A DNA stretch of 64,000 bases, from the NCBI RefSeq assembly GCF_017163755.1, contig NZ_JAFIWC010000009.1, positions 62,001-126,000 of the forward strand, written 5' to 3'. Under the pieces are notes generated by a model that was not told where the DNA came from, did no database searches, and was given only the letters and a program-made list of their open reading frames with translations. Position numbers and translations under genes: made by a program. Source of the DNA: Xanthomonas sp. (GTDB lineage Bacteria > Pseudomonadota > Gammaproteobacteria > Xanthomonadales > Xanthomonadaceae). Numbering within the stretch: the stretch's first letter is position 1; every line of letters starts with the position of its first letter. Shown here one piece after another: positions 1,228 to 20,900 of this stretch.

Positions 1228-1839
1228 ATGTCGAAACTCCTTCCCCGCGCGGGCATTGCGCCCGCAGAAGGCTTGCGTGAACGCAAGCGTCGCCAGACAC
1301 AGCAGCGCATCGCCGAGGTCGGCCAGCGCCTGTTCCTCAGCAAGGGGTACGACAGCACGACGCTGGACGCGATCGCGGCAGAGGCCGGCATCTCGCGCCG
1401 TACCTTCTTCTCGTACTTCAAGTCCAAGGACGACATCATATTCTTCTGGCTGGACACCGACCGGGCGAGCCTGATCGCCAGCCTGCTGAAGACCTCGCCC
1501 GACGTGCCTCCGCTCGACGCGGTCCGCGATGTGATGGTCAAGCACATCGCGCAATACACGACGGAACAGATGATCGCGGTCGACAACCTCATGCTGTCGA
1601 GCGAATCGCTGCTTGCGCGCAAGCAGGCACATTACGCGCAGCAGGAACAGGCGCTGTTCGACGCGCTGTGCGAGGTCTGGCGGCAGCCCGAACGCCGCGC
1701 GGCGCTGCGGATGGTGGCCATGGTGTCCATCGGCGCGATGAAGATCGCGCTTCAGGCGTGGCGGGAACAGACCGGCCAGCGAAAGCCCGCCGCCAAGTTC
1801 TTGCGCGACGCCTTCGACAATCTGAAATCGGTACTTTGA
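1228..1839 (+). CDS. TetR/AcrR-family transcriptional regulator
   Basis: This 203-residue protein is a normal length for TetR repressors. The N-terminal helix-turn-helix is clear: a basic helix (RERKRRQTQQRIAEVGQRLF), then TTLDAIAAEAGISRRTFFSYF, the recognition helix ending in the usual YF-K motif. The rest is the helical ligand and dimerisation domain. I chose the ATG at 1228 because it gives the usual short tail before the DNA-binding domain; an in-frame ATG at 1168 would add 20 residues of uncharacteristic sequence. Such proteins typically repress an efflux pump or enzyme gene nearby, but no obvious target adjoins it: the kinase is upstream and a gene-poor gap lies downstream. The ligand cannot be told. 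Confidence 0.85.
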   Translation: MSKLLPRAGIAPAEGLRERKRRQTQQRIAEVGQRLFLSKGYDSTTLDAIAAEAGISRRTFFSYFKSKDDIIFFWLDTDRASLIASLLKTSPDVPPLDAVRDVMVKHIAQYTTEQMIAVDNLMLSSESLLARKQAHYAQQEQALFDALCEVWRQPERRAALRMVAMVSIGAMKIALQAWREQTGQRKPAAKFLRDAFDNLKSVL

Positions 1840-2217
1840 CGGCACGCCGGGATCGGATCCGCCGGCGCTGGCGCACCGATCGGCCAATGCAGCATCCATC
1901 TCAACGAAGCGGCTGATCCGCACGGGCGGGCCGCTCCCGCCTCGCCGCCAGTGCGTGCGCGGCTCGAGCCAGCGGTTCGCAGCTTCGGTGGCCCATACCA
2001 GGTGTCCCGCGTGTAGCCTGGACCAGGCTTGATGCTGCCAAGCCGTCGAGCGACTGGCCGACATCGGACCAGGCGCCGTTGACCAGGTTGGACATCGAGT
2101 TCCCGTGGACGCGCTCGATGTCGCACCGACTCGCGCCGAACAGCGCCCGGCAGCGTTCGGGACTCAGACGGCAAGCGGTTGCCAGGGACGAGCGCGCCAC
2201 GGCTACAATGCAACCGG
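1840..2217. other. Intergenic stretch, no supported gene
   Basis: No convincing gene is present. A minus-strand frame near 2095 begins MSNLVNGAW and faintly recalls the first residues of some glutathione transferases, but it lacks any following domain. A TACAAT hexamer at 2204-2209 could be the -10 of the copper genes. It ends only eight bases before the ATG at 2218, which would make that transcript nearly leaderless. Confidence 0.4.
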
Positions 2218-2619
2218 ATGCGACACCCGGCCTTCCAGCGCAGGATGATCTTGTTGGCGATGCTCGCCGTGGCGTTGCTGTTCGCCATGCCGATCGCATC
2301 GCGGCTGGTCGCGTCCGCCGCCGGCGACGCGCACGGCACGTGGGCCCAGCTGTGCACGGCCAGCGGCATGAAGCTGGTCAAGATCGGCTTCCCACCCGTC
2401 GCGTCCGACGGCGAGCTGCCGTCGGCGCCGGCCATGGACCCGATGCACGACGACTGCCCGTACTGCCCGCTGAGCGCGGGCATGGTGGTGCTGCTGTGCC
2501 TGCTGCTGGCCCTGCACGCCACGCCACGGCGCAACGCATGGACCCGGCGCTTCGATGTCGCGCGCGCGTTCCTGCATCCCACTGGCCTGGGTTCCCGAGG
2601 GCCCCCGCTTCCGGCCTGA
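2218..2619 (+). CDS. DUF2946-type small membrane protein, copper cluster
   Basis: A 133-residue protein with an N-terminal hydrophobic helix (about residues 10-28), a periplasmic loop holding the HDDCPYCPLSAG motif, and a second hydrophobic helix. The Cys-x2-Cys pair with adjacent His and Asp between two membrane segments is typical of DUF2946 proteins. These often sit beside copper TonB receptors, and the next three genes here are exactly of that kind. The likely role is metal (copper) handling at the inner membrane or periplasm, which is inferred from context. I chose the ATG at 2218; an in-frame ATG at 2245 is the alternative. Base composition matches the surroundings. Confidence 0.7.
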   Translation: MRHPAFQRRMILLAMLAVALLFAMPIASRLVASAAGDAHGTWAQLCTASGMKLVKIGFPPVASDGELPSAPAMDPMHDDCPYCPLSAGMVVLLCLLLALHATPRRNAWTRRFDVARAFLHPTGLGSRGPPLPA

Positions 2620-2673
2620 AGTCGATCCTCCGCGCGTCGCGTGCGCGCGTCACTTCATTTTCGGGAGTTCTTC

Positions 2674-4800
2674 ATGTCGATTCTTTCCGTCGCGGCGCCG
2701 CGTGCGTCGCGCTTGGCCGTGGCTGTGGCCGCCATCCTTCTGCCGACCGCCGCGCTGCGCGCCGCCGAGCCGGCCACGCCCACCACTCTGGATGCCGTGC
2801 AAGTCCGCTCGGCGGCGCTCGAGCGCATCCAGGCCGAACAGGCGCTCACGCCGGGCGGCGTGACCGTGCTCGATGGCGATGCGTTCCACGAACGGGCGGT
2901 CGCCACCATGGCCGATTCGCTGCGCTACGTGCCCGGCGTGTGGGCCGAGAGCGGCACCGGCGGCGATGCGATGTTCATCTCCAGCCGCGGCTCCAACCTC
3001 GACGCCACCGACTACGACAACAACGGCGTCAAGCTGTTCCAGGATGGCCTGCCGGTCACCACCGCCGACGGCAACAACCACAACCGCTTCATGGACCCGT
3101 TGGCCGCGCGCCACGCGATCGTCGCCCGCGGCGCCAATGCGCTGACCTACGGCGCCAGCAACCTGGGCGGCGCCATCGACTTCGTGAGCTACACCGCGCG
3201 CAACAGCGCGCCCTGGCAGGCCGCCATCAGCGGCGGCAGCCACGGCCTGATCAGCGGCCGCTTCACCGCCGGCGGCGTCTCCGGCGACCTGGACGGGCAG
3301 GTGACGGTGGAAGGCAAGCATGCGGACGGCTATCGCGAGCACGGCCGGCAGAGCCGCACCGGCGTCTACGCCAATGGCGGTTGGCAGGCGTCGCAGGACC
3401 TGGATCTGCGCGTCTACGCCATGCACGTGGACAACCGCGAACAGCTGGCCGGCGCGCTCACCCGGGCGCAGTTCGACCAGGACGCGGACCAGGCCAACCC
3501 GTCGGCGATCAGCGGCAACTTCCAATGGAACACCACCACCGACCGCCTGGCGCTGAAGGGCGACTGGACGCCGGATGCGGACGGCCGGCTGGAGTTCGGC
3601 CTGTCCTACGAGAACCAGGATCTCTACCATCCCATCGTCGACAAGGTCATGGTCGACTTCGACGGCGGCGGTCCCGCGGCGCCCGTGGAAGTCTTCAGCC
3701 TGCTCAAGAACACCGACCAGCGCACCTGGGCCGGCATGGCGCGCTACAACGTCAAGCGCGGCGATCACGACCTGCTGCTGGGCCTCAACCTGGCCGACAC
3801 GCGCGAGACCGGCGGCAACTACCGCAACCACCACGGGCAGCGCAATGGCCGCACCGGCATCATCGACAACCGCTCCGACAGCACCGAGGTGTTCGTCGTG
3901 GACCGCTGGACGCTCGCCCAGGACTGGACGCTGGTCTACGGCGCGCAGGGCGTGTTCACCGGCCGCGACGTGCGCAACACCGACCTGGCCAGCGGCACGC
4001 TGCGCAATCCGAAGGCCGACTACCGCGCCTTCAATCCCCGCGTCGGTGCGATCTACGCCATCGCCCAGGGCAGCGAGGCCTACGCCAGCATCAGCCGCCT
4101 CTACGAAGCGCCGACCACGTTCGATCTGGAAGACGACGTGCGCGGCGACGGCTCCACCCTCGATGCCATGCGCGGCATCGTCTACGAGCTGGGCGTGCGC
4201 GGCAGCACGCCGCCCGCTTCGCAATCGGTGAGCTGGCAGTGGGACGTGGACGTGTATTACGCGCAGATCCGCGACGAGATCCTCTCCGTCGACGACCCTG
4301 CCGCACCGGGCACCAGCCTGTCCGCGAACATGGATCGCACCGTGCACGCCGGCGTCGAGGCGCTGCTCGGCGCCAGTATTCCGCTCGGCGACGGCGCGCA
4401 GCGCATCGAACCGCTGCTCAGCGCCAGCTACAACCGCTTCGCGTTCGATGGCGATCCGCACTACGGCAACAACGCCCTGCCGGCCGCGCCGGACTACGCG
4501 CTACGCGGCGAGGTGATGTATCGCCACCAGAACGGCTTCTACGCCGGGCCCACATTCGACCTGGTGGGCGCGCGCCATGCCGATTTCAGCAACACCTATC
4601 GCATCGGTAGCTACGGCCTGGTCGGCCTGCGCACGGGCTTCGCCCGCGACCGCTGGCAGGTCTTCCTCGAAGGCAGGAACCTGGCCGACAAACGCTACGT
4701 GGGCAGCATGAGCGTGCGCGACCGGGCGAGCGCCGACGCGGCGATCCTGCAGGCCGGCGCGCCGCGCTCGGTGTATGCGGGCCTGCGGTTCCAGTACTGA
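2674..4800 (+). CDS. TonB-dependent outer-membrane receptor, probably for copper
   Basis: A 708-residue protein beginning with a signal peptide that ends around ALRAAEPA (residue 32). A plug domain (about residues 60-175) carries the usual NLGGAIDFVSY-type segment. A long beta-barrel follows and ends in an aromatic residue (LRFQY), as outer-membrane barrels do. I chose the ATG at 2674 for the GGGAG ribosome site eight bases before it; a GTG at 2641 would precede the signal peptide with extra residues. TonB receptors take up metal complexes using ExbBD-TonB energy. The copper assignment rests on neighbours (DUF2946 before it; SCO and PCu(A)C after it, starting 10 bases downstream) and not on a substrate motif. 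Confidence 0.85.
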   Translation: MSILSVAAPRASRLAVAVAAILLPTAALRAAEPATPTTLDAVQVRSAALERIQAEQALTPGGVTVLDGDAFHERAVATMADSLRYVPGVWAESGTGGDAMFISSRGSNLDATDYDNNGVKLFQDGLPVTTADGNNHNRFMDPLAARHAIVARGANALTYGASNLGGAIDFVSYTARNSAPWQAAISGGSHGLISGRFTAGGVSGDLDGQVTVEGKHADGYREHGRQSRTGVYANGGWQASQDLDLRVYAMHVDNREQLAGALTRAQFDQDADQANPSAISGNFQWNTTTDRLALKGDWTPDADGRLEFGLSYENQDLYHPIVDKVMVDFDGGGPAAPVEVFSLLKNTDQRTWAGMARYNVKRGDHDLLLGLNLADTRETGGNYRNHHGQRNGRTGIIDNRSDSTEVFVVDRWTLAQDWTLVYGAQGVFTGRDVRNTDLASGTLRNPKADYRAFNPRVGAIYAIAQGSEAYASISRLYEAPTTFDLEDDVRGDGSTLDAMRGIVYELGVRGSTPPASQSVSWQWDVDVYYAQIRDEILSVDDPAAPGTSLSANMDRTVHAGVEALLGASIPLGDGAQRIEPLLSASYNRFAFDGDPHYGNNALPAAPDYALRGEVMYRHQNGFYAGPTFDLVGARHADFSNTYRIGSYGLVGLRTGFARDRWQVFLEGRNLADKRYVGSMSVRDRASADAAILQAGAPRSVYAGLRFQY

Positions 4801-4810
4801 GGGCGTGCAC

Positions 4811-5437
4811 ATGAAGACTTCGATACTTGCGATATCGCAGCGGCAGGACAGCCGCCCCGCGTGGCACGTCGTCCGCCATGCGGCGTTCCTGTTGTTCGTC
4901 CTGCTGCTGTGCGGCTGCAGCCGCCCGCCCCTGCACGGTGCCGATTTGAGCGCGGCCGGCCGCGGCGCGAGCTTCTACCTGAAGGACACCGAAGGCGTAC
5001 CCCGCCCGCTGCAGAGCTTCCGCGGCAAGGCGCTGGTGCTGTTCTTCGGCTTCACCCGCTGTCCGGACATCTGCCCCACCACCCTGGTGCGCGCCACGCA
5101 GATCAAGCGGCAGCTCGGCGAGGACGCGCGCCACGTGCAGTTCGCGTTCGTCACGCTGGACCCGCAGCGCGACACCCCCAACGTACTGCGAACCTACGTG
5201 CAGGCCTTCGATCCGGACTTCATCGGCCTGACCGGCAGCGAGGGCGAGATCAGGATCGCCACCACGCAACTCAACGTGGCCTACGCCAAGGTGCCGATCG
5301 GCAACACCTACACCATCGACCATTCCACCCGCAGCTACGTGTTCGACGCCGCAGGCCACCTGCGCGTGGGCCTGGCGCACAAGCAGAGCGTGGAGGCGTG
5401 CGTGGAGGATATCCGCCAGGTGCTGGCGTACGACTGA
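4811..5437 (+). CDS. SCO1/SenC-family copper lipoprotein
   Basis: A 208-residue protein. A hydrophobic leader ends in the lipobox LCGC (Cys36), so it is probably a lipoprotein facing the periplasm. The thioredoxin-like SCO fold is recognised by FFGFTRCPDICPTT, where the CPDIC pair binds copper, and by the downstream His in IDHSTRS. Family members deliver copper to the CuA site of cytochrome oxidase or act as periplasmic thiol/copper proteins. I chose the ATG at 4811, ten bases after the receptor stop; an in-frame start at 4775 would overlap the receptor and push the leader inward. It sits in the copper operon between the receptor and PCu(A)C. Confidence 0.9.
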   Translation: MKTSILAISQRQDSRPAWHVVRHAAFLLFVLLLCGCSRPPLHGADLSAAGRGASFYLKDTEGVPRPLQSFRGKALVLFFGFTRCPDICPTTLVRATQIKRQLGEDARHVQFAFVTLDPQRDTPNVLRTYVQAFDPDFIGLTGSEGEIRIATTQLNVAYAKVPIGNTYTIDHSTRSYVFDAAGHLRVGLAHKQSVEACVEDIRQVLAYD

Positions 5438-5521
5438 TCCGGCGCGCTCCATAGGCCGCACGACAAGAACCCACCCGCCGCATCGCGGCGGTCTTCTCCC
5501 GCAAGCCAAGAGGTATTCACC

Positions 5522-6079
5522 ATGAAAACGCGCGCCACCGCACTCGCCGCCGCGCTGCTCGTCCTGGCAGCCTGCCAGCCGTCCACTGACCATGCGGCGC
5601 ACGACAGGTCGACCGCCACGCCACCAGCGCCCGCCGATGCCGCAGCCCCTCCCGCCCGCGCGGTGTCGCCGGCCGTGCACGCCAGCCAGGCCTGGACGCG
5701 CGCCACGCCGCCCGGCGCCGCCGTGGGCGCGGGCTACATCACCTTGCGCAACGACGCCGACACCGCCGACAAGCTGGTCGCGATCCGGTCGGAGGCGAGT
5801 GCGCGCGTGGAAATCCACGAAATGCGGATGGACGGCGACGTCATGAAGATGCGCCAGCTCGATGAAGGCCTGGCACTGCCGCCCCACGCAACGGTGGTGC
5901 TGCAACCCAGCGGCAACCACCTGATGTTCATCGAGCCGCGCGCGCCGTTCGTCGCCGGCACGCCGGTCGAGGCCACGCTGACGTTCCAGAACGCGCCCCC
6001 GGTGACGGTGCAGTTCGACGTGCAGCCGATGGGGGCCGCTGGCCCTGGCGATGACGACCACGGGCAGCACATGCACTGA
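5522..6079 (+). CDS. PCu(A)C-family copper chaperone lipoprotein
   Basis: A 185-residue protein. The lipobox LAAC (Cys18) is followed by an Ala/Pro-rich linker to residue 55. The PCu(A)C domain carries the methionine/histidine copper site: IHEMRMDGDVMKM, then GNHLMF about 40 residues later. The tail is rich in Asp and His (DDDHGQHMH) and may bind extra metal. The family carries Cu(I) in the periplasm and works with SCO proteins to build the oxidase CuA centre, which matches the gene immediately upstream (84-base gap). A good ribosome site (AAGAGGT) precedes the ATG. It is the last gene of the copper set. Confidence 0.9.
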   Translation: MKTRATALAAALLVLAACQPSTDHAAHDRSTATPPAPADAAAPPARAVSPAVHASQAWTRATPPGAAVGAGYITLRNDADTADKLVAIRSEASARVEIHEMRMDGDVMKMRQLDEGLALPPHATVVLQPSGNHLMFIEPRAPFVAGTPVEATLTFQNAPPVTVQFDVQPMGAAGPGDDDHGQHMH

Positions 6080-6185
6080 CGCGTGGTGGCTCGCATCCGG
6101 TGCGGCGGAACCGAACGTGCGCATAGCATTGCGCTAGCGCCTGCTACCAACGCCCTGACTGCCCGCTTGCGCCTCAAATCTGCAC

Positions 6186-6203
6186 TGTAGTAACGTAACT
6201 ACA
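6186..6203 (+). promoter_or_regulatory. Near-perfect palindrome, likely antitoxin operator
   Basis: An 18-bp near-palindrome, TGTAGTAACGTAACTACA (16 of 18 positions symmetric), lies 24 bases before the antitoxin ATG. Phd/YefM antitoxins repress their own operons through such palindromes. It falls in an AT-richer spot than its surroundings. The binding role is inferred. Confidence 0.5.
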
Positions 6204-6227
6204 TAGAGTGAATGCAGGAGGTGCCCA

Positions 6228-6482
6228 ATGACCATCACAACCTTATCCAGTCGGGAACTGAACCAGGACGTGACGCGGGCAAAGAAGGCTACCAAGAGCG
6301 GCCCGGTGTTCATCACGGACCGCGGCAAGCCTGCGCATGTGTTGTTGAGCTTCGAGGATTACCAACGGCTGACTAGGCAGCGGCGCAACATTGCCGATGC
6401 GCTGGCGATGCCGGGCGTTGCAGACATCGAGTTTGAGCCGCCGCGCGTGACGATTGGAGCTAGGCCGGTTGATCTCTCGTGA
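6228..6482 (+). CDS. Phd/YefM-family antitoxin
   Basis: An 84-residue protein with the Phd signature: SSRELNQDVTRAKKAT at the N-terminus, then GPVFITDRGKPAHVLLSFEDYQRL. This is the DNA-binding dimerisation fold of type II antitoxins. The C-terminal third, which usually wraps round the toxin, follows. Its stop overlaps the toxin start as TGATG, and a palindrome precedes it, so the pair is one autoregulated operon. A good ribosome site (AGGAGGT) lies before the ATG. Antitoxins of this type neutralise a PIN-domain or RelE-type partner; here the partner is a PIN protein. Confidence 0.9.
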   Translation: MTITTLSSRELNQDVTRAKKATKSGPVFITDRGKPAHVLLSFEDYQRLTRQRRNIADALAMPGVADIEFEPPRVTIGARPVDLS

Positions 6483-6907
6483 TGTACGTGCTCGACACTA
6501 ACGTGCTGTCCGAGCTGCGCAAGGTGCGGCTCGGCAGAGCGGATACGAATGTGGCGGCATGGGCGGAAAGCGTCGATGCCGCCGATCTCTTCATCTCGGC
6601 CATCACCGTCATGGAGCTGGAGGTTGGCGTTCTGTCGATCGAACGCAAGGACGCTACCCAGGGCGCCATGCTGCGTTCGTGGCTGGAACAGCACGTATTG
6701 CCTGAGTTCTCCGGGCGCACATTGCCGATCGACACCGCTGTGGCGCAGCGCTGCGCCCGGTTGCATGTACCCGACAAGCGCGGCGAGCGCGACGCGCTTA
6801 TCGCGGCGACGGCGCTGGTGCATGGCATGGCGGTGGTCACGCGCAACGTCTCTGACTTCGAGCCCACGGGAGTTCCCGTCGTCAATGCTTGGGAGCCGTT
6901 GCCATGA
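6482..6907 (+). CDS. PIN-domain (VapC-type) toxin ribonuclease
   Basis: A 141-residue protein with the acidic PIN pattern: YVLDTNVLSEL at the N-terminus, MELEVG in the middle, DALIAATA and then RNVSDF near the end. These residues normally bind the Mg2+ used to cut RNA, often tRNA. The ATG at 6482 overlaps the antitoxin stop (TGATG); a GTG at 6479 in the same frame is the alternative. This arrangement is that of type II toxin-antitoxin systems. The pair marks the start of a lower-GC accessory patch that continues to about 9.5 kb. The RNA target cannot be told. Confidence 0.9.
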   Translation: MYVLDTNVLSELRKVRLGRADTNVAAWAESVDAADLFISAITVMELEVGVLSIERKDATQGAMLRSWLEQHVLPEFSGRTLPIDTAVAQRCARLHVPDKRGERDALIAATALVHGMAVVTRNVSDFEPTGVPVVNAWEPLP

Positions 6908-6971
6908 TCGCCTACGGGCTTATGCGTAAGGCAATTGGAAGTTGTCCGCTATGAAAAAGTGAGGGTTAGAA

Positions 6972-6985
6972 GTCAACCTGACCCC
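6972..6985 (+). repeat. Left copy of island-flanking repeat (GTCAACCTGACCCC)
   Basis: This 14-mer matches the reverse complement of 9479-9492 at 13 of 14 positions, so the two copies face each other across the three-gene unit. A shorter direct copy, AACCTGACCCC, is at 7062-7072. Similar GGGGTCAGG words are familiar beside mobile elements in these bacteria, but no transposase is present here. Confidence 0.5.
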
Positions 6986-7061
6986 GTCTATTCGAAATCG
7001 TTGCCGCCAGCGGCCGTCGATCAGATGGAGATGATTGCATGAAAACGTGGGGAAACCTTAG

Positions 7062-7072
7062 AACCTGACCCC
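7062..7072 (+). repeat. Second left copy, AACCTGACCCC
   Basis: An exact 11-base direct repeat of the core at 6975-6985, 43 bases before the first gene of the island. Between the two copies there is only short AT-richer sequence without a gene. Confidence 0.45.
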
Positions 7073-7114
7073 ATTCTTTAGGGGCTGCAACTCGCGACCG
7101 GGGGAACAAGAAAT

Positions 7115-7762
7115 ATGGCCAAGGACATAGCGGCTTCGCCGAAGCTCCAGCTCACGCTGCCTGAATACAATCGCATCTACGAGATCATCTACTCCGTGCT
7201 TGAAGGAAGGGCAAATACACCTTTTGCATGCATGTTTTTTGCTGCCGCTGGGGCTCTGATCCTTAACAAGCACTACAAGATTCCAGCTCGTGCAGTAGCA
7301 GGCGCTTTTCTGCTATGTGCTGATCTTGCGCCTTCGGTCATCAGCATTGCGAAGAACGAAGATGGCGTGGTCACGTCTGATCGAGATGGGTTCCATATGT
7401 GGGTTCAGACCGAAACCCATGTGATTGATTTCATGGCGCCGATATTTAACGAGGCAATCAAGGGCAAGGGCTATCCTGGCACGGTGCCGCGCAAAATGTT
7501 TCAGCGCTCGCTGTCTGCGGAAGTGGAATCCATCGAGCAGCTGCGCGCGCCCGGCGACTACTTCACGATGCCCAGCATTGAGCTGACCAAGGAGCTTGTT
7601 GATTCACTATTTGAGCGACCTGCAAATGTGGATCTTCTGAATGCAGTCGATCGTTGGTTCAAGAAATACCCAAAGAAACTGGATGGCCTGAGTCTGTTAA
7701 ATGACCTCGGCGAAGTGCACAAGCTGACCTTGAGCGCACCCCGGATTTCGGGGGCTTGGTAA
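7115..7762 (+). CDS. DUF2026-family protein, transglutaminase/papain-like fold suspected
   Basis: A 215-residue protein that I place in DUF2026. The sequence suggests a cysteine-protease-like core: Cys39 in PFACMFFAAAGAL heads a helix, His94 lies in the GFHMWVQTETHVIDF strand, and Asp105 ends the same strand. This Cys-His-Asp order and the HxW...hD pattern resemble transglutaminase and arylamine acetyltransferase folds. No signal peptide or membrane segment is seen, so it should be cytosolic. It opens a unit in which the next genes follow after four-base gaps. Composition is clearly lower in GC than the genome around it (29 of 60 in the line 7201-7260). The substrate is unknown; protease or amide transfer is inference. 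Confidence 0.65.
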   Translation: MAKDIAASPKLQLTLPEYNRIYEIIYSVLEGRANTPFACMFFAAAGALILNKHYKIPARAVAGAFLLCADLAPSVISIAKNEDGVVTSDRDGFHMWVQTETHVIDFMAPIFNEAIKGKGYPGTVPRKMFQRSLSAEVESIEQLRAPGDYFTMPSIELTKELVDSLFERPANVDLLNAVDRWFKKYPKKLDGLSLLNDLGEVHKLTLSAPRISGAW

Positions 7763-7766
7763 GCGC

Positions 7767-8690
7767 ATGATTACACTCAGCAATGAGCGGGGACTTGTTC
7801 GCATTGCGTCTTGGGGTGACATCGAGTCCGTCCCCGGATTCACGGCGGACATTGACCCAAAGACGGTGAAGCTCAAAGAGATCATTGGCAGCTACACGTT
7901 CGATGCTCTGATTCCATGCGGGCTTTCGACTTGTCACCAGCCCCACGGCAACGGATTCCTTGTTGCGGCGGCAGATGGGAGAGTGACCAACATCGGACGC
8001 ATCTGCGGAAAGCGACATTTCTCCGTGGAGTTCACGCAGATGAGTCGCATTTTTCTTGCCGCTGTTAGGGCGCAACAGAACCGCGAGTTCTTGGGTGAAC
8101 TGAGGAGCCGACTTCCCACCATCACGACAGAAGTCGCCACCATCAAGAACGAACAGCATGGTGCCGCGTGGATCAATACCCGCGTTAATCAGCTCACCGG
8201 GAAATCTACTGCTCTTCCGACGCCGATCATCAACGCGGTTCGCCAAGCGGTCCGGCGAGGCAATGGAGTTCTCATCATTGAGCGCGCGGCGACCAAGCAA
8301 GAGCGCGAAGAACGATCCGCTGCGGTAGACGTCAAGGGTCTTGAGCACATGCGCCGAAACGTCTCGTTTGTTGTTGAGGATCAGGTTGGTCAATTGGATG
8401 GATTCGCTGCGCTTGCACCTGGCAATGGACTACGGGAAATCCTTGGGGCGATTGAGCCGTTCCTGAAAGGCCTTTCGGAAGCAGATATTGAGAGCCTGCC
8501 GGACAAACAGCTCCGGGAGCTGTCGAAGGTAGGTGGCGAGCTTGATGCGAATCTTGATCGGCTTCGCGCCATTGTCGCTGCCGGAAGGCGATTGCTGACA
8601 CGGAAGAACATTCAGCAGCTCATGCGGTTCGCCACTAGCAGCGCGGAAAACCGCTTGTTTGCGGTGTTCTTGAGCGACCTTCCTAACTGA
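7767..8690 (+). CDS. Unknown protein with Cys/His metal-site pattern and helical tail
   Basis: I do not recognise a named family for this 307-residue protein. The N-terminal part holds a likely zinc site: Cys51-x4-Cys56, His57 and His60, then Cys80-x3-His84 in RICGKRHF. The middle and C-terminal parts (residues 90-307) are mostly charged helix, with long stretches such as REFLGELRSRL and ELDANLDRLRAIVAAGRRLL that could form coiled coils. It has no signal peptide. It starts four bases after the DUF2026 gene and ends four bases before the Abi gene, so the three are very probably made together. A sensor or adaptor role between enzyme and toxin is possible, but this is speculation. Confidence 0.6.
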   Translation: MITLSNERGLVRIASWGDIESVPGFTADIDPKTVKLKEIIGSYTFDALIPCGLSTCHQPHGNGFLVAAADGRVTNIGRICGKRHFSVEFTQMSRIFLAAVRAQQNREFLGELRSRLPTITTEVATIKNEQHGAAWINTRVNQLTGKSTALPTPIINAVRQAVRRGNGVLIIERAATKQEREERSAAVDVKGLEHMRRNVSFVVEDQVGQLDGFAALAPGNGLREILGAIEPFLKGLSEADIESLPDKQLRELSKVGGELDANLDRLRAIVAAGRRLLTRKNIQQLMRFATSSAENRLFAVFLSDLPN

Positions 8691-8694
8691 GTAC

Positions 8695-9462
8695 TTGACC
8701 TTGAACATTCGCGACGCTTTGCAAGACCCCAGCATGTCAGGCAAGCTGATGCTTGCCTTGCAACGTGCGGTTTCTGACCAGTTCACCCAAACCGATTGGG
8801 AAGAGCTGGGCTACGAAACCGGCGAGCACGATTACATTGCCGGGCACCAGCGCCTCATGCGGAGCCTGTACTTTGGTGATGAAGACTATGGTTCTTGCGT
8901 CTTCCAAGTACTTCGGTACTTCGCTGACCACAACGCGGCTGCCATTGAGGTACTTCTCAAGCGGAAGAAGATTCGGTTTGCATTGGAGAATGACGCTCAG
9001 GAGTTGCTGCATGATTTGGGGCTGATCGAGTCGCATGTTCCGGCAATTCCGTCTGGCACCATCACAGCGTCCCAAGTTGTGGAGCGCGCGCTGGCAGACG
9101 CGAATCATTTGCTAGCGAAGAGCGGTCCCATCAGCTGCATCGACCGCCTGCACACCGCGCTCCATGGATACTTGAAGGACTTGGCTATTCGCGCTGGGCT
9201 CGTCGTTGATGACCAGTCATCCCTTACTCAGCTCTTCAAGCTGCTGCGCGCCAGCCATCCGAAGTTCCAGCACCTCGGTAGCCAAGACAAAGACATTGTG
9301 CGAGTGCTTAACTCGCTCTCCAACGTGGTTGATGCGCTCAACACGATCCGGAATCATGCGTCGGTCGCGCACCCCAACGAAAATCTGCTGGATGAGGCGG
9401 AAGCGATGCTTATGGTGAATATCACGCGCACCCTGTTCCACTACATCAGCGCGAAGGTCTAG
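8695..9462 (+). CDS. Abortive-infection family protein (Abi_C domain, HEPN-like RNase)
   Basis: A 255-residue protein. The C-terminal half (from about residue 130) matches the Abi_C pattern: a helix with IDRLHTALHGYLKDLA, then LLRASHP, then VVDALNTIRNHASVAHPN. Arg219 and His226 give the R-x6-H spacing of HEPN ribonucleases, which are common effectors of phage-defence and toxin systems. The N-terminal half is a helical domain I cannot name. The start is uncertain: TTG at 8695 or 8701, or ATG at 8734. The TTG at 8695 keeps the four-base gap to the previous gene. Codon use is lower in GC than the core genome, fitting acquisition with its two neighbours. Confidence 0.75.
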   Translation: MTLNIRDALQDPSMSGKLMLALQRAVSDQFTQTDWEELGYETGEHDYIAGHQRLMRSLYFGDEDYGSCVFQVLRYFADHNAAAIEVLLKRKKIRFALENDAQELLHDLGLIESHVPAIPSGTITASQVVERALADANHLLAKSGPISCIDRLHTALHGYLKDLAIRAGLVVDDQSSLTQLFKLLRASHPKFQHLGSQDKDIVRVLNSLSNVVDALNTIRNHASVAHPNENLLDEAEAMLMVNITRTLFHYISAKV

Positions 9463-9478
9463 CGGGCGGCAAGATGTC

Positions 9479-9492
9479 GGGGTCAGGCTGAC
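9479..9492 (-). repeat. Right copy of island-flanking repeat, inverted
   Basis: The plus strand reads GGGGTCAGGCTGAC, the inverted partner of 6972-6985 with one mismatch. It lies 17 bases after the stop of the Abi_C gene. The three-gene unit therefore sits between facing copies about 2.5 kb apart, as a transposed or recombined cargo would. Confidence 0.5.
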
Positions 9493-9606
9493 TTACTCCG
9501 CTCCCGCAGGATGTCCTGCAATTGTCTACAGGCGTCCTGCTTTAAACGTTGACAGCTTCTTTTGGTCGAGTAACTATTTATTTGTTGCGGCAAATTCCGC
9601 AGCCGG

Positions 9607-9797
9607 GATTGGTCTCCCGAAATCTACAAGGCGCACCAGCGCCCATCTTCGATGTCCGGCGCTTTTTTGTTTCCCGGCTTCGAGGCGGGGCAGGGCTTGC
9701 AGCTTTATGGCGGGCGGTGCGCGGGGGCCTTCGGGCCCGCCGGTTGCCTTGTGGCCGGTAGACCAACCCGCACCGTCCGCCACCTTTGATTGGTCTC
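9607..9797 (+). ncRNA. Structured leader upstream of symE, possible antisense-RNA locus
   Basis: A 13-bp stem (9708-9720 with 9770-9782, including one G-U pair) encloses a perfect hairpin with a UUCG tetraloop (9725-9738, stem GGGCC/GGCCC). The heptamer AGACCAA (9760-9766) can pair with TTGGTCT either upstream (9609-9615) or downstream (9790-9796), so two folds compete. SymE-type toxins are normally controlled by antisense RNAs, and PtaRNA1 in Xanthomonas lies in this position relative to its symE-like gene. I cannot show that an antisense transcript exists; its strand would be minus. Confidence 0.4.
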
Positions 9798-9832
9798 GGG
9801 GATGGCGGACTCCATTACACAAGGAGAACGTC

Positions 9833-10264
9833 ATGCCCCGTAACGCTTCCGCTCGTTCGAAGTCCGCGTCCACCCGCCGCGCCGCCGAAGCGCCACCCTG
9901 CTGGCTCAAGGTCGAATCGCCCGATCCCCTGGATGCAATTGCCGCCGAACCGCTGTCTGGTGCGTCGGCGCCGCCGGCAAACCCCGTTGCCGACGAGGTG
10001 GTCGCCGCGCCCAGGCGCTCGATCCCACGCCGGCCGACGCACTGCACCATCGGCTATCGCTACTACGATGTGGAACGCAATGGGATGGTGGTCGGGCGGC
10101 AGGTGCCCAGCCTGCGCTTGCATGGGCTGTGGCTGGAAGGCATCGGCTTTGCGGTGGGCGGCAAGGTGCGGATCAGGATGGTCGAAGGCGCTTTGCTGAT
10201 CACCACCGTGCCTACGCAGCCGCCGGTGGAGAAGAAGCGGCGTTCGCGCAAGCCGTCACTTTAG
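9833..10264 (+). CDS. symE: SymE-family type I toxin
   Basis: A 143-residue protein. The N-terminal 65 residues are low-complexity and Ala/Ser/Pro-rich. The SymE domain spans about residues 70-126: HCTIGYRYYDV, then VPSLRLHGLWLEGIGF, then a short beta segment ending GALLITTV. The tail is basic (KKRRSRK). The domain has an AbrB/MazE-like fold; E. coli SymE is an SOS-induced toxin repressed by the antisense RNA SymR. I chose the ATG at 9833 for the AAGGAG six bases before it; the longer open frame upstream runs through the structured leader. A strong hairpin follows the gene. The function of this copy is inferred from the family. Confidence 0.8.
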   Translation: MPRNASARSKSASTRRAAEAPPCWLKVESPDPLDAIAAEPLSGASAPPANPVADEVVAAPRRSIPRRPTHCTIGYRYYDVERNGMVVGRQVPSLRLHGLWLEGIGFAVGGKVRIRMVEGALLITTVPTQPPVEKKRRSRKPSL

Positions 10265-10273
10265 CCATGCCGC

Positions 10274-10302
10274 AAGCGGCCGCAGGCGTTCTGCGGCCGC
10301 TT
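10274..10302 (+). terminator. Hairpin after symE
   Basis: A perfect 11-bp stem, AAGCGGCCGCA with TGCGGCCGCTT, and a 7-base loop begin 9 bases after the symE stop. There is no clear T-run, so efficiency as an intrinsic terminator is uncertain. Confidence 0.55.
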
Positions 10303-10483
10303 GAGCGGTTCTCGGTGACCGGTAACCACAGTCTTCAGTACTGTGATCATCGGTAAAGCGTCCCGTCTCGACTCGAAGCCGCAGAACCCCCGGCGGGCCG
10401 GATCGGGGGGTTGTTGACATTGCGTGAAGATCCCGCAATGCTCCGCGCCATTAGGCCATTGAGGGCCGCATAGCAGGGACGTT

Positions 10484-12645
<2,162 letters not shown>

Positions 12646-12649
<4 letters not shown>

Positions 12650-14064
12650 AGCACGTCGTCGAGGGGTTTGGTGCGTTCGCCCGACGTTACTGGGGCGTGT
12701 TCCGCTCGGCCTGGGCCTCGCGCCGCGAACTGGACTCGCCCGAGCGCAGCGACGACGAACGCGCGTTCCTGCCGGCCCACCTGGAACTGATCGAAACGCC
12801 GGTCTCCCCCACGCTGCGCTGGACGATGCGGATCATCGTCGCGTTCTTCTGCGTCGCCCTGCTGTGGGCGTGCCTGGGCAAGCTGGATATCGTCGCGGTG
12901 GCACCCGGCAGGACCGTGGTCGACTCGCGCACCAAGATCATCCAGCCGGCCGAGACGGCGGTGGTGCGACGCATCCTGGTGCGCGATGGCCAGCAGGTGA
13001 AGGCTGGCGAGGCGCTGATCGAACTGGATGCCACGACCACGGGCGCCGAGCTCGCCCAGGTCGGCGAGACGCTGACAGAGGCGCGCCTGGCTTCGTTGCG
13101 CCTGACCGCCCTGGCCACGGCCATCGACAGCGGCGCAACCCCGCGCCTGACCCCGACGCCGGACGTGCCGGCCGGGCGCTTCGCCGCCGAGCAGGCCCTG
13201 GCCAGCAGCCAGTTCGAGGCATTGCAGGCCAAGCGCCACAACCTGCAGGCGGCCATCGCGCAGCGCCGGGCCGAACTGCGGACCACGCGCGACACGATCG
13301 AGCCGATGGCCGAGTCGGCGCGCATCTCCAAGGCGCGTGCCGAGGACTACGGCCGCCTGGTCGAGGGCAAGTACGTCGGCCGCCACGACTACCTGCTGCG
13401 CGAGCAGGAGCGCATCGCCGCCGAGCGCGACCTGGCCACGCAGCGCAACCGGCTGCAGGAGATCGGCTCGGCGCTGAGCGCGGCCGAGGAGGAACTGCGC
13501 GTGCTGGTGGCCGACTTCCGGCAGCAGACGCTGGACCAGTTGCGCGAGGCCGAGCAGAAGGTGGCGCAGGGCACGCCGGAACTGGCCAAGGCCGGGCGGC
13601 GCGATGGCCTGATGACGCTGCGCGCGCCGGTGGACGGCACCGTGCAGCAACTGGCGGTGCATACCGTCGGCGGGGTGGTCACGCCGGCGCAGGAACTGCT
13701 GGCGGTCGTGCCGCAGGAGGCGCTGGAGGTCGAGGCGACGGTGCTCAACAAGGACATCGGCTTCGTACGGCCGGGACAGCCGGTGACGGTGAAGATCGAG
13801 AGCTTCCCGTATACCCGCTACGGCTACCTGACCGGCAAGGTGGTGAGCGTGTCGCACGACGCGGCGCAGGACGAGAAGCTGGGGCTGGTGTTTCCCGCAC
13901 GCATCCGATTGGACGGCAGCAAGCTGGATATCGACGGCGTGGTGGTGAGCATGAGCGCCGGCATGGCGTTGAGCGCGGAGATCAAGACCGGGAAGCGGCG
14001 GGTGATCGACTACTTGCTGAGCCCGCTGAAGCAGCATGTGGGTGAAGGAATGCGGGAAAGGTGA
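12646..14064 (+). CDS. Type I secretion membrane-fusion protein (HlyD type)
   Basis: A 472-residue protein with a short cytosolic N-terminus, one membrane helix (about residues 62-80, [16 protein letters not shown]) and a lipoyl-like half-motif ([23 protein letters not shown]). A long periplasmic helical hairpin rich in Glu, Arg and Gln spans about residues 150-310. The second lipoyl half ([21 protein letters not shown]) and a beta domain follow. It bridges the ABC exporter to the outer-membrane channel. Its ATG overlaps the exporter stop by four bases, so the two are translationally coupled. Confidence 0.93.
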
Positions 14065-14212
14065 GGCTGCCGACCCCGCCAATCCACGGTGGGCAGCTTT
14101 TGCCCGCAGGACATTGGAAGTGGGAACTATTCGATGCTCGCTTGCACACAGTGGTTACAACGCTATGGGGCGCTCCGCGCTTTATTACAGCCCGGGTTGG
14201 AAGGAGGACTGC

Positions 14213-14971
14213 ATGAGGAAGATGGGCGTAGTGATCGGGTTGACGATCGCGGCGGTGTCGGTGGTCGTCGCCTCCGTTTCGTGGAAGCTCAGGCAGATAG
14301 ATGCGGGAATCTGCCCGAGCACGGGCGTTCAAATGAGTGACGCGGATCTGCGGTCGCGGGTGCTGTCTAGCCTGATTGGCATCGGATTGGAGAATATTCG
14401 TGTTCAGGATGCCGACTATTACCACGGGGGGCGCGGTCTCAAGGTGGCCGGCCCGATGTCGGACCGTGATATTGCAAAGGCGCTGTTTGATCTGAAGAAC
14501 GGCGGGAATGATTTCGCTGGCGAGCTCGGTGCGAAGGAAGTCACGCAGGGGGCCAGTGAGCACATCGACTCGATCAGGGAGCCATTTGTCCTGCTTGATT
14601 ACTCCACTCATGGCACCTATACAGCGACGCGAACGGCATCGCAGGACGTCATTTACGTAGACCCGTCCAGCTTGCCAGCTGGCGCGGGTTGGCCAGGACT
14701 GGTGAACCGGCTGAGGGGCTTCGGGATTCACTACTACAGGATTCAAGTGCGGCAGTTCATCTACGACTGCTGTACCTACAAACACGGCACCCGGGTGCAC
14801 CCAGCCGTACCAGGAGGCACTACCCATTACTGGGAGACGGGTAAGGACGGCAGCGTAATAATTGGTCACCACGATTTGGGAGGAGTGGCCTACGTCTCCA
14901 ACTGTGGCGAAATCATGACTCGCAGGAATGCACTTGGGTTCAACGAAATCAAATGGATCAAAGGAGAATGA
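14213..14971 (+). CDS. Unknown membrane-anchored protein before the RTX gene
   Basis: A 252-residue protein of no family I recognise. The first 25 residues (MGVVIGLTIAAVSVVVASVSW) form one hydrophobic helix, an uncleaved signal or anchor; the rest should lie in the periplasm. The body has several Cys (ICPS, DCCTY, SNCGE) and a Gly/Tyr-rich C-terminal half. I chose the ATG at 14213 for the AAGGAGGA five bases before it; a longer open frame upstream has no such site. It lies between the exporter genes and the RTX gene and overlaps the region of the RTX start, so it may help with folding, immunity or export of that protein. Its GC content is lower than that of the exporter genes. Confidence 0.6.
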   Translation: MRKMGVVIGLTIAAVSVVVASVSWKLRQIDAGICPSTGVQMSDADLRSRVLSSLIGIGLENIRVQDADYYHGGRGLKVAGPMSDRDIAKALFDLKNGGNDFAGELGAKEVTQGASEHIDSIREPFVLLDYSTHGTYTATRTASQDVIYVDPSSLPAGAGWPGLVNRLRGFGIHYYRIQVRQFIYDCCTYKHGTRVHPAVPGGTTHYWETGKDGSVIIGHHDLGGVAYVSNCGEIMTRRNALGFNEIKWIKGE

Positions 14972-14973
14972 AT

Positions 14974-17900
14974 GTGACGATGCCAACCATCAACCAGATC
15001 GTTTCACGGTACCTGTTCAATACGGACGTGCCGCCTTCAAATCTTGCTGACGAAGCGTTGATCCGTAGTGCAGGGCAGCAGGGAGATCAAGTAAATGTCA
15101 ACGCAAACGAATATATGACGACCGGGGCTGGTCGATTCGCAGGTGTCGAAAGATTCAACTTCGTGCGCAATTTCCTTGCTGGAAACGACTACCAAGGAAG
15201 CCTCCCTCCTGGTGTCTACTCGACATCGGATCTGCTGACATTATATGGGATAAAAGAGGGTCGGCTGGCTGTGCAACAGTACTATCAGGGCGTGTACGAG
15301 AGTGATTATGCAGAACGAGCATATGTATTCGGGTCTGGAGCCTATGAGATCAATATGGACGCGGTCTTCTATGTCAACGAAGACGGTACGCGAGAGATTG
15401 ATAACATTTGTGTAGTTCCCGTCGATAACGATTTTGATTATGAGAGCACGAACTGGCTGGCGTCAGTCACCAATGGACTGACGGAGGGAGAGATCGACCC
15501 CTCAGGCATCGGCCGGACTGTGCCGATACATTTCACCGAGACTGTCACGCAGAGGTACAGCTTCAGTGCCGAGGACTGGTATGCGCTGGACTTCAAGAAT
15601 GCACAGGCGCTGGCCGCCGAGCGGGCCGCGAAAGCGGCCTTGGTCGCCGATATCGGTCACTTCGCGGGGGTCTTTGGCTCGTTGCTTGGCGACTTGGTCA
15701 CTGGGGATATCATCACCTACGAGGATGCGGACAATCGCTTTGTCGTCTACGACGGCAAGGACACGAACAATAGCAACTCCAACCTTGACGCGATGACCCT
15801 TTTGAACCTAACGGAGCAGCTTCCGTACAACGGCGTCGTTGTCATTGCCGGAAATGGGAATGACCATCTGCACGGCACGGGTTACACCGCGGGTGATGAA
15901 TTGCGTGGCGGTGCTGGCAACGACACGCTGGACGGAAGGGGGGGCGGTGACACGCTCATCGGTGGCTCTGGCGACGACATCTACCTCGTCGAAGACGAGG
16001 GGGATGAGGTCATCGAAGAGGATGGTGGTGGCGATGACACCGTCAGGTCGGAAATCAACTATACCTTGGCGGCCCACGTTGAGAATCTTGAGCTGACCGG
16101 GAGTGAAAGCATCTCCGCGACGGGCAATAGCTACAAGAACAAGATCCGGGGCAATGATGCCGCCAACGAAATACTCGGCCTTGAAGGGGATGACGATCTA
16201 TACGGGCAAGGCGGCAATGATCTCATCAAGGGCGGCCAGGGTCGGGATCTTCTGGAAGGGGGCGCTGATGTCGATCGCCTGGAGGGTGGCGAGAATTTCG
16301 ATATTTACCAGGCGGACGGCTTGGATACGATATTGGACAATGATGGATCCGGAACCGTCTTCTTGGAGGGGTTCAATCTTACAGGTGGAACGCGGACCGA
16401 GGATGATCCCGAGAATACCTACTACGGCAATGGCGATACCTACGTTCTGAATGGTGCGACACTGGTGGTCAATGGCGGGCTGACCATTGAGCAGTTCAGC
16501 AATGGCGACCTCGGGATCTTTCTGGAGACGGAGCCGGACGAGCCAGAGGAGCCAGAGGAGGGGCCGGATATCGGGCCTGCCGAGAGCAGGACGTCGCCGA
16601 TCGTCATCGACCTCGATGGTGACGGTGTCGAGACCACTGCGCTCCAGAATAACCGCTACTTCGACCATGATGCCAATGGAATGCGCGAGCGAACTGCCTG
16701 GGCATCTGCTGACGACGGGTTTCTCGTTCGCGATCTGAACAGGAATGGGCGGATCGACAATGGACGCGAGATGTTTGGGAATCAGACGCGCCTCGCAAAT
16801 GGCAACTTGGCATCGAATGGTTTCGAAGCGCTCCGAGACCTGGACGACAACCAGGACGGCCTCATCGACCAGAACGACGCAGTGTTTGCCGAGCTGCGGA
16901 TCTGGCGCGACCTGAACGGCAACGGCAGGACTGATTCGGGCGAGCTGCAGACCTTGGCGCAAAGCGGCCTGAGCGCGGTTCGGACGGGTTGGCAATCCTC
17001 GGGTTACGTCGACGCGAACGGACAGATGCATGCGCAGATTGGCACCGCGATCCGCCATGACGGGACGGATGCCGCAGCTGCCGACGTCTGGTTCCAGGTA
17101 GATGCAACACACAGGAGCAATGCACAGTTCGACCCGGCGATTCGGGATTTCTTGCAGCTTCCCGATGCCAAGGCCTTCGGCAACCTGCCTGACCTGCGGC
17201 AGGCGATGGCGAGGGATCCCGCGCTGGTCGACCTGGTTGAAGCGTATACCGCGGAGACGGACCCGGCATCCCGGGCGGCCATGCTGGAAGGCTTGATCTT
17301 CCAGTGGGCAGGCGTGGCCGACGTGGACCCATACAGCAGGGATCCACGCATGGTCTATGGGCATGTCATGGATGCGCGCCAGCTGATCGTACTCGAGCAG
17401 CTGGTTGGCCGGGGCTACGAGGGCACTTGGTGTTGGGGCGAGCGCGACCCCAACCCGCATGGCAATGCGGCTCCGCTGCTGAGGGAGGAGTTCGCAAAGT
17501 TCTCGATGTATGTAGGTGCACAACTGCTGGCCCAGGTCGATTCGGAGAACTACTCGTTCATCAAGGGGGGCTTCGCCTCCGGTTATTCCCACGTCATGAT
17601 CGACTGGGAAGAGTTCAACCAGGTGGCTGCATCTCTCGCTGCAGACGGACGGGACGCCAAGCTGACCGAGATCGTCGACGTCCTGCGCGACCTCGGCGCC
17701 TATTCCCCTGTGTTCCGAGACCAAACCATGCAGGGGTTCGCCCTCGCCATGGCGCTTCACCCCGAACTGTCGTCTTTTTTCGGTATTCCCTCGCTGATTG
17801 GAACCGAGGGAAACGACTGGCTTGTGGGCCAGTACTTAGACGAAGTGATCGTCGCCGACAAGGGGGACGACACCGTGTTCGGCGGCGGAGGCAACGATAC

Positions 17901-20900
17901 TTACCGTTATCGGGCAGGGGACGGCAAGGACAGGATCTACGACACCAGCGGCACGGACCAGCTGGTGTTCATGGAGGGAATAGAGACGACGCACGTGTCC
18001 ATATCGCGCGATCTGACGTCGATCACCTTGACCATAGCCGTGGGGGCGACGGTCGGCGAGATCCGTATCGATAACGTGTTCGATGAGAACGGCCACCAGC
18101 GGGAAGGTGTGATCGAGGCAGTCCACTTCCACAATGGCACGACCTGGGGAATGGCGGATCTCGTGTCGCGCATCGTGCTTCCCGTTACCGCAGGCGATGA
18201 CGTGCTGTACGGTACCGTTTCCGGCGAGATCATTTCCGCCCAGGCCGGGAACGACGGTGTCTTTGGCTTGGATGGCGACGACCAGTTGAACGGTGATGCC
18301 GGTGATGACACGATCCACGGCGGGAACGGAAACGACGTGCTCGCCGGTGGCGCTGGCGATGACCTGCTGAACGGTGGGGCAGGCGACGATACCTATCTAT
18401 TTGGCCCTGGTTTTGGGCATGACGTCATTGAAAGCTACGATGACGAGGCGCAACGTCTCGACAAGATCGCGTTTGAAGCCGGGATCGTGCCTGCCGACGT
18501 CACGTTGACGCGGGTCGGCAATGACCTGCTGTTGATCTTGTCCAGTGGTGACAGCCTGCTGGTGAAATCCCACTTTCAGGCAGATGGCGATGGCGCCTAC
18601 AGCATTAGTGAGATCCAATTTGCCAATGGGACCATCTGGACTACGGAGACGCTAAGGTCGAAGGCACTGGGCGGCACGAACGATAACGACTCGCTGACCG
18701 GGTATGCGTCGGACGACGTGATAGACGGGTTGGCTGGTGATGACGTCATCCGTGGCGGCGAAGGCCATGACCAACTGCTAGGGCGCGATGGAGACGATCG
18801 CTTGTATGGCGGGAACGGGGCGGACGCACTGACTGGCGATGCAGGCCAGGACCAGTTGCTCGGCGAGGATGGAAACGATGTGCTGGACGGCGGTGCAGAC
18901 GATGACCTTTTGGAGGGTGGTTACGGCGCTGATCGGCTGATCGGCGGCGCCGGTAACGATCATCTGTACGGTGGTGCCGATGGCGATCAGCTGGTAGGGG
19001 GATTGGGCGACGATCGGCTGGAAGGCGGCTATAGCGATGATCGGTATTACTTCGCCCGAGGCGATGGGAAGGATACGATCAATGACATTGGTGGTTTCAG
19101 CACGATCCTGGTGTCGAACTTGCCGTTGAATGAAGTCTATTTCCGCCGGGATGGAGATAGGCTCCTCATTCTCTTCACTACCAGTCCTGATGACCAGATC
19201 AGCCTGGAAGGCTTTTTCGACGCTGCAACGGGACTGGCGACATCAGGGATCAGCATCGATACCGGAGAGGGTGAGCCATGGGACATCTCCGCGAACGAAC
19301 TGGACACAGTGGTGCTTCTGGGCACCTCCCTGGATGACACGATCAACGCTAACGCGCTGGACAACACGATCGGTGGCCTGGCGGGGAACGATACGATCCG
19401 GGCCGGGGGTGGCGCCGATGCCCTCAATGGGGGTGGCGGCAATGATCTCCTGTATGGGGACGCTGGCGATGATCTGTTGGCAGGAGATGCTGGCGATGAC
19501 CTGCTCGATGGTGGGACCGGCAGCGATCAACTCGCCGGTGGCAATGGTGACGATTCCTATGTGGTCGACGATGCGGGTGATGTGGTAACCGAGGCCGTCG
19601 ATGGTGGCACGGATCATGTCCGGAGCAGCATCAGCTATGCCTTGCCGGACCATGTCGAACGGCTCGAATTGATTGGTGGAGACGACGTCAACGCCAGCGG
19701 CAACGAGTTGGACAACCAGTTGGTTGGCAACAGCGGAGGCAACTACCTGCAGGGATTTGGCGGAAACGACGTACTGAACGGAGATGACGGCGACGATCGA
19801 CTGGAGGGCGGGGACGGCAACGACACCCTGAACGGCGGCATCGGCATCGATGTGCTGGACGGTGGGGTTGGGCACGATGTGCTTGATGGTGACAGCGGGA
19901 GCGACCAGCTAGTAGGCGGCGCTGGCGACGATACCTACAGAGTCGATGAAAGCACGGATGTGGTAGTTGAACTGTCAGACGAGGGCGCCGACAAGGTCGA
20001 GTCCTCCGCCTACAGCTACAGGCTGACAGACAACATCGAACAGCTGACATTGGTCGAAGGGAGCCGTGCGTACGAGGGTGCTGCGGGCGCAGGCAACCAG
20101 GTCCTGATTGGCAACAGCAACGACAATCGCCTGGATGGCGGCGCTGGAGCCGATGATCTCACCGGTGGCCTAGGCAACGACACATACATGGTCGACCAGG
20201 CCGGTGACGTCATCGTCGAACTGGCCGGGGAAGGGATCGACACGGTCGAGTCCAGCATCAGCTACACGCTGGGCACGAACCTGGAGAACCTGACGCTGTT
20301 GGGCGACGACGATCTCGCTGCGACGGGAAACGACGGCAATAACGTAATCCGCGGCAATGCCGGTAATAATCTTGTCGTTGGCGGTGCCGGTGCCGATATT
20401 CTGTACGGTGGTGCGGGCGATGATATGTATGTGTCCGTATCCGCATCCGACAGCGTGCACGAGCGTGCGAGCGGCGGCATTGATACCGTCGAGCGCGTGT
20501 TCGAAACCAACCTGGTGCTCGACAACAACGTCGAGAACCTGATCCTGGGCAGTGGCATTACCACCGGCAATGGCAACGCGCTTGACAACACCATCACCGG
20601 GAACGCCAGCGCCAACAGCTTGGGTGGCTGGGACGGCGACGATGTTCTGTTCGGCCTGGACGGCGACGACAACCTGTTCGGCGGTACCGGGGCCGACATC
20701 CTGTACGGTGGCAACGGCGCCGACTACTTGGATGGCGGCGAAAGCGTCGATCACCTGGAAGGTGGGGCAGGCAACGATATCTACGTCACGGACGATAGCG
20801 CCGATGTGGTGGTCGAAGCCGCCGGCGCTGGCACGGACCAGGTTCAGACCATCGCCTCATATGTGCTGTCGGCCAACATCGAGAACCTGTTCCTGATGGG

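Follow-up and report, generated by a model that had tools for sequence, protein, structure and literature searches.

A block of three closely spaced genes in a Xanthomonas sp. genome raises the question of whether a protease-like protein, a Cys/His-rich protein and a putative RNase constitute a single anti-phage system, and whether the site that they occupy is a recurrent place for such systems. The genes are located in a 64,000-nucleotide stretch of DNA, referred to here as the window. An earlier reading of the letters without database searches (the sequence-only reading) described them as a low-GC, three-gene unit with four-base gaps, adjacent to a Phd/PIN toxin pair and bracketed by inverted repeats, and proposed an abortive-infection circuit. 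The genes, here called A, B and C, are:

7115..7762, + strand: gene A, a DUF2026 protein of the papain-like family with Cys39-His94-Asp105 (PF09641, E 2.7e-58)
7767..8690, + strand: gene B, a member of phrog_7003, where its function is listed as unknown (E 9.9e-56)
8695..9462, + strand: gene C, an AbiJ_NTD5 plus Abi_C HEPN protein with R219-x6-H226 and a TTG start

The family assignments, the residue patterns and the two gaps of 4 nt were all borne out. Gene A scores 197.5 bits against a PF09641 cut-off of 25, which places it in DUF2026, its sole Pfam match at E values up to 1. The Cys39-His94-Asp105 pattern is kept in 8/8 aligned DUF2026 proteins and in two more inspected by eye (10/10 in all), and gene A appears to have papain-like Cys, His and Asp at the active-site positions; in the alignment with its homologue of structure 2HLY (E 1.2e-28) a Ser of 2HLY takes the place of the Cys. 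Gene B has no significant match in Pfam (best E 0.13). Alignments reveal an N-terminal CCHC group (C51, C56, H60, C80), and structure models predict a beta domain after it followed by a long helical tail, in keeping with the Cys/His protein with a helical tail described earlier. Gene C matches both AbiJ_NTD5 (PF18865, E 9.2e-23) and Abi_C (PF14355, E 4.6e-17) above their cut-offs, and it alone is recognised in a PADLOC scan of the three proteins (AbiJ, E 1.8e-6). Its R219-NHASVA-H226 corresponds to the R-x4-6-H RNase motif of HEPN proteins, with identical spacing in 5/5 aligned proteins. The TTG start at 8695 is supported because a 90% identical copy of the gene at another locus (L028, below) has GTG at the aligned position.

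The GC content of the unit is 55.0% compared with 67.2% for the window, with just one of 124 sliding segments of unit length as low, which agrees with the low GC noted earlier and suggests a recent foreign origin. All three reading frames are open in both copies of A-B-C (the window and L028), and the dN/dS values (0.12–0.14 for A, 0.09 for B and 0.12 for C) indicate that the genes are under purifying selection.

The surroundings of the unit are organized as follows:

6228..6482, + strand: Phd/YefM-type antitoxin, conserved left border (PF02604, E 2.4e-10)
6479..6907, + strand: PIN-domain (VapC-like) toxin, conserved left border (PF01850, E 9.2e-15)
6970..6986, + strand: left arm of the inverted repeat, slot edge; 12–16 of 17 letters kept in 6/6 other left flanks
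9478..9494, + strand: right arm of the inverted repeat; 14–16 of 17 letters in 6/8 other right flanks
9584..9668, + strand: isrK-like RNA, right border (RF01394, 52.7 bits, gathering 50)
9703..9787, + strand: C4 antisense RNA, right border (RF01695, E 3e-14)
9836..10264, + strand: SymE-family protein, right border (PF08845, E 2.6e-14)

The adjoining Phd/PIN pair is thus real, both profile matches being clear. On the other side the isrK-like RNA, the C4 antisense RNA and SymE form one block next to the slot (9571–10264), within which a C4 a1b1 target region is matched below the gathering threshold. C4 RNA is known mainly for its role in phage immunity, and SymE may be the gene that it regulates here. 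According to PMC12444791, no integron cassette of Xanthomonas is more widespread than the one that combines symE with sRNA-Xcc1, and the right border may be that cassette. A simple core-site pattern found no attC next to the unit (5500–10700), a pattern that a degenerate attC could escape. Further to the right (10484–22932), an ABC transporter and membrane-fusion pair is followed by a 2659-aa repeat-rich, RTX-like protein, as judged by eye from the open reading frame list.

Both borders recur in related genomes with different DNA between them. A search of 20 same-genus genomes, one of them that of the window, showed the left flank (window 6167–6987, containing Phd/PIN) at 90–94% identity in six of the other 19 and a partial flank (312 nt at 83%) in a seventh; matches in the remaining 12 are absent or short and weak. 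The right flank (isrK, C4 and SymE) is located within 5 kb of the left flank in all seven genomes that have the latter. Homology to the window on the left side stops at 6976–6993 in 6/6 flanks, and on the right side has its edge at 9473–9486 in 6 of 10 aligned flanks, with the match in the other four beginning further in, at 9523 or 9584. The DNA between the arms spans 1070, 1273, 1971, 3103, 3519 and 4219 bases in the six full-flank genomes and 2491 bases in the window. Genes for tRNAs are present in 5 of 10 fetched slot loci, and none was found in the window.

The two arms are 17 nt long and complementary at 16 of 17 positions. Judged by shuffling alone the inverted repeat is weak and not clearly beyond chance within the window: the 14-mer was matched twice at up to two mismatches (0.46 matches expected), and at least as many matches arose in 12 of 100 shuffles. 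Across the whole genome there are 17 matches at up to one mismatch, compared with four for a reversed control. In one related locus (L104) both arms are altered jointly and are still complementary at 16/17, and in four other compared loci complementarity is only 10–13/17; the right arm was not found in two of the eight right flanks tested (L102 and L110, with L107 and L108 outside the scoring). The repeat is considered meaningful because in related genomes arm-like sequence marks where a variable slot begins and ends. The earlier statement that repeats bracket the unit holds, with the arms being borders of the slot: no arm match at up to two mismatches is present in the stretches fetched around two other loci with A and B (L028 and L002).

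The slot contents differ from genome to genome and are frequently recognisable as defence genes. Where both flanks are present the cargo is Lamassu, a type II-A retron, an AAA_15 plus RelA_SpoT pair, or genes not recognised. The Lamassu locus (G291) has LmuB (E 8.9e-210) and two open reading frames matching the first and second parts of one LmuA-type profile, so that lmuA looks split. The retron (G134) is identified by RT_II-A (E 7.7e-98) and NDT_II-A (E 9.9e-74), and the AAA_15 plus RelA_SpoT pair of G300 is the PADLOC candidate PDC-S33 (E 6.6e-53); the same pair is present in G271, as identified by matching sequence and not by PADLOC scan. Counting the window, and G271 by sequence, five of the eight both-flank loci carry PADLOC-recognised genes. 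The other three (G238, G250 and G281) contain genes not recognised as defence, with no PADLOC match and no Pfam match over cut-off. Three loci with a right flank only were also fetched (G308, G085 and G111), two of them covered by PADLOC: G308 gave one weak match among three scanned proteins (PDC-M63A, E 7.8e-5), and the 560-aa gene of G085 gave none.

The slot between Phd/PIN and isrK/C4/SymE is accordingly well supported as a hotspot for defence cargo, and the unit is likely to be defence cargo as such. This reading rests on the Lamassu, retron II-A and AAA plus RelA_SpoT cargo of relatives, on the AbiJ-type HEPN domain of C and on Gabija genes found beside DUF2026 elsewhere (below). Whatever the mechanism of the unit, this repeat-edged slot is a place to seek new defence systems. 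Cargo genes with neither a PADLOC match nor a Pfam match over cut-off (L102:2769–4470, L105:7011–7871, L106:3015–4214 and L111:4548–6230) are candidate new defence genes.

Searches of family genomes show how far the three genes travel together. B is matched in 12 of 395 genomes, over its full length in seven (an internal stop interrupts one of those seven), and A is matched in five. Three genomes have both, an overlap with P 2.1e-4, and in each of them A directly precedes B with a junction of 3–4 nt. The gene that follows is C in two genomes and an HNH-like gene in the third. The second A-B-C copy, in L028, is adjoined by a tRNA-Met gene and corresponds to the window as follows:

7097..9462, + strand: block common to the window and the A-B-C copy of L028 (87% DNA identity, blastn)

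The match extends over 2371 alignment columns from 18 nt before A to the stop codon of C. Coding DNA identity among the three A-B loci is 84–92% where compared, which argues that they are one lineage and represent one event. Co-occurrence in the same order, proposed earlier as a check, is thus found as A-B-C in L028 and as A-B with a different third gene in L002, all within that single lineage.

The alternative third gene encodes a 269-aa protein in L002 (Lysobacter arseniciresistens). It is called HNH-like on the basis of a motif seen by eye and of one plasmid homologue annotated as an HNH endonuclease (32.5% identity), with most other homologues annotated as hypothetical protein or chaperonin and nothing significant in Pfam. 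It also follows a remnant of B, without A, at two further loci (L038 and L039). B is broken in all three B-HNH loci, by a stop in L002, by an internal deletion in L038 and by loss of all except the C-terminal end in L039, and at each of them the HNH-like frame is open (L038:1813–3188, L039:7412–8472, L002:8001–9745). A direct search found the HNH-like gene in 3 of 198 family genomes, and near two of these three (G061 contig C12, and G103) B was not found.

Each of the three genes also occurs elsewhere without the other two. C-type proteins (PF18865) are present in 6 of 316 family genomes, four of which have no A or B within the 8–10 kb fetched, and in two further loci (L043 and L044) without A or B; C is therefore not, in general, dependent on A and B. 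Full-length C homologues without A or B share 55% (L122), 43% (L124), 37% (L123) and 34% (L125) identity with C. The lone homologue of L124 adjoins genes resembling the TniB/TniQ transposition genes by eye (1408–5513). On the Cupriavidus necator plasmid pHG1 two AbiJ-type genes are in tandem (L044:5115–11711), and an ATP-binding and UvrD-helicase pair that is Gabija-like by annotation lies ~1.8 kb after them. B occurs in 25 of 72,556 plasmid records, none of them among the 13 records that have A, as well as in four phage records and 16 loci of viral contigs; six neighbourhoods on plasmids and two in phages were read. One B homologue (L032:7652–8548) is situated in an array with 11 attC-like 81-nt repeats, which shows that integrons can move phrog_7003 as a cassette.

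DUF2026 is rare, exceeding the cut-off in 3 of 398 phylum genomes, the window's own included. Ten A loci were read, three with B and seven without. DUF2026 abuts Gabija in two of them: L002, which has B (GajA, E 2.2e-62; GajB, E 1e-54), and L040, a Caulobacter plasmid in which A begins 58 nt after gajB (GajA, E 9.4e-269; GajB, E 2.7e-210). In the stretches read at the other A loci no defence gene was recognised by annotation or eye.

A-B-C is probably an anti-phage cassette, in a combination not met in the searches made. In the reading preferred here, to which we assign a probability of about 0.4, C (or the HNH-like protein) is the effector, and A with B controls it by proteolysis. A-B-C would be an abortive-infection cassette carried as cargo of a chromosomal defence hotspot. 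C would be the executioner, an AbiJ-type HEPN RNase that cuts RNA and so stops the infected cell, as its family and intact R-x6-H suggest. From its residues A is predicted to be an active papain-like cysteine protease, and B may be a zinc-binding, coiled adaptor made together with it. The two together would sense or hold the trigger, and we infer that they control the third-gene nuclease by proteolysis, A putatively acting on C itself. The earlier abortive-infection proposal is strengthened with respect to defence; the obligatory three-part circuit is doubted because A, B and C each occur alone, all A-B loci belong to one lineage, and no B-HNH locus has an unbroken B.

These same observations invite the alternative that C, as an Abi protein of the AbiJ type, works on its own, and that A and B, accessory or defence genes in their own right, only share its transcript within a compact cassette. 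This is nearly as probable as the preferred reading: besides the separate occurrences, homologues of C keep their full length where A and B are missing, and the HNH-like gene persists next to broken B. It accounts less readily for the short A-B junction kept with a nuclease-type gene next in 3/3 loci, albeit of one lineage, and for purifying selection on the genes tested. A more ambitious version of proteolytic control takes the change of third gene as its starting point: the DUF2026 protease and a zinc-binding, chromo-like adaptor would be an exchangeable sensing module that activates a third nuclease, HEPN RNase or HNH-like, as a papain-type counterpart of the canu system (below) that kills by RNA cleavage and travels as repeat-edged hotspot cargo. 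We regard it as doubtful. Compared with three homologues that lack A and B, C has no insertion over three residues, so that no canu-like gating loop is visible; for the preferred reading too, this weakens the case for a gating mechanism copied from canu.

A role in plasmid or island maintenance in place of phage defence, with C or the HNH-like protein as a toxin checked by A and/or B, would also fit an operon of three genes that ends in a nuclease-type gene, the Phd/PIN and SymE neighbours and the presence of B on plasmids. Such an addiction module is improbable given that C and HNH homologues exist without A and B and that the recognised slot cargo of relatives is phage defence. The low GC and the broken copies of B could alternatively point to cargo that is decaying or neutral and serves no function today, a view that the dN/dS values and the open frames of both A-B-C copies render very improbable.

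Returning to proteolytic control of a nuclease by A and B, comparison with known systems shows both precedents and differences. Among the listed titles and abstract openings of open-licence papers, no description was found of an anti-phage operon of a papain-like protease and a HEPN protein, and none in hotspot or AbiJ accounts of the Phd/PIN-isrK/C4/SymE slot or of the A-B-C operon; DUF2026 was found in open-licence full text only in PMC10318531. That paper deals with the Atu2299 structure (2HLY), which like A is a papain-like DUF2026 protein that keeps the His and Asp positions, although Ser replaces the catalytic Cys that A retains as Cys39. The same source proposes a virulence role for DUF2026, whereas the genomic contexts seen here point to defence. 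Gabija is a neighbour of DUF2026 in two loci; the unit itself is not Gabija, with no GajA or GajB among A, B and C in the PADLOC scan. With the AbiJ abortive-infection proteins (PMC3710099), C shares AbiJ_NTD5 and an AbiJ-type HEPN domain that contains the RNase motif; neither A nor B accompanies the relatives read here, whereas C comes third in an operon, after the genes for a protease-like protein and a CCHC protein.

The closest parallel in layout is canu (KaeCanABC; PMC12799240), a three-gene operon found in defence islands in which a cysteine-type protease and a downstream nuclease are separated by a protein whose role is unclear. There, a caspase activates the downstream pro-nuclease, the protease and the middle protein assemble into a soluble complex, and CanA-CanB are thought to control CanC. 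The components nevertheless differ: the canu protease is a caspase that carries an Ig-like domain, and the canu nuclease is a hydrolase of the MBL fold that has gating loops, whereas A matches DUF2026 and C is an AbiJ_NTD5 plus Abi_C HEPN protein, and the unit is therefore not canu. If proteolytic control by A and B is correct, another protease class would be added to those that trigger nucleases by proteolysis in bacterial immunity, and a function would be provided for two families without one, DUF2026 and phrog_7003.
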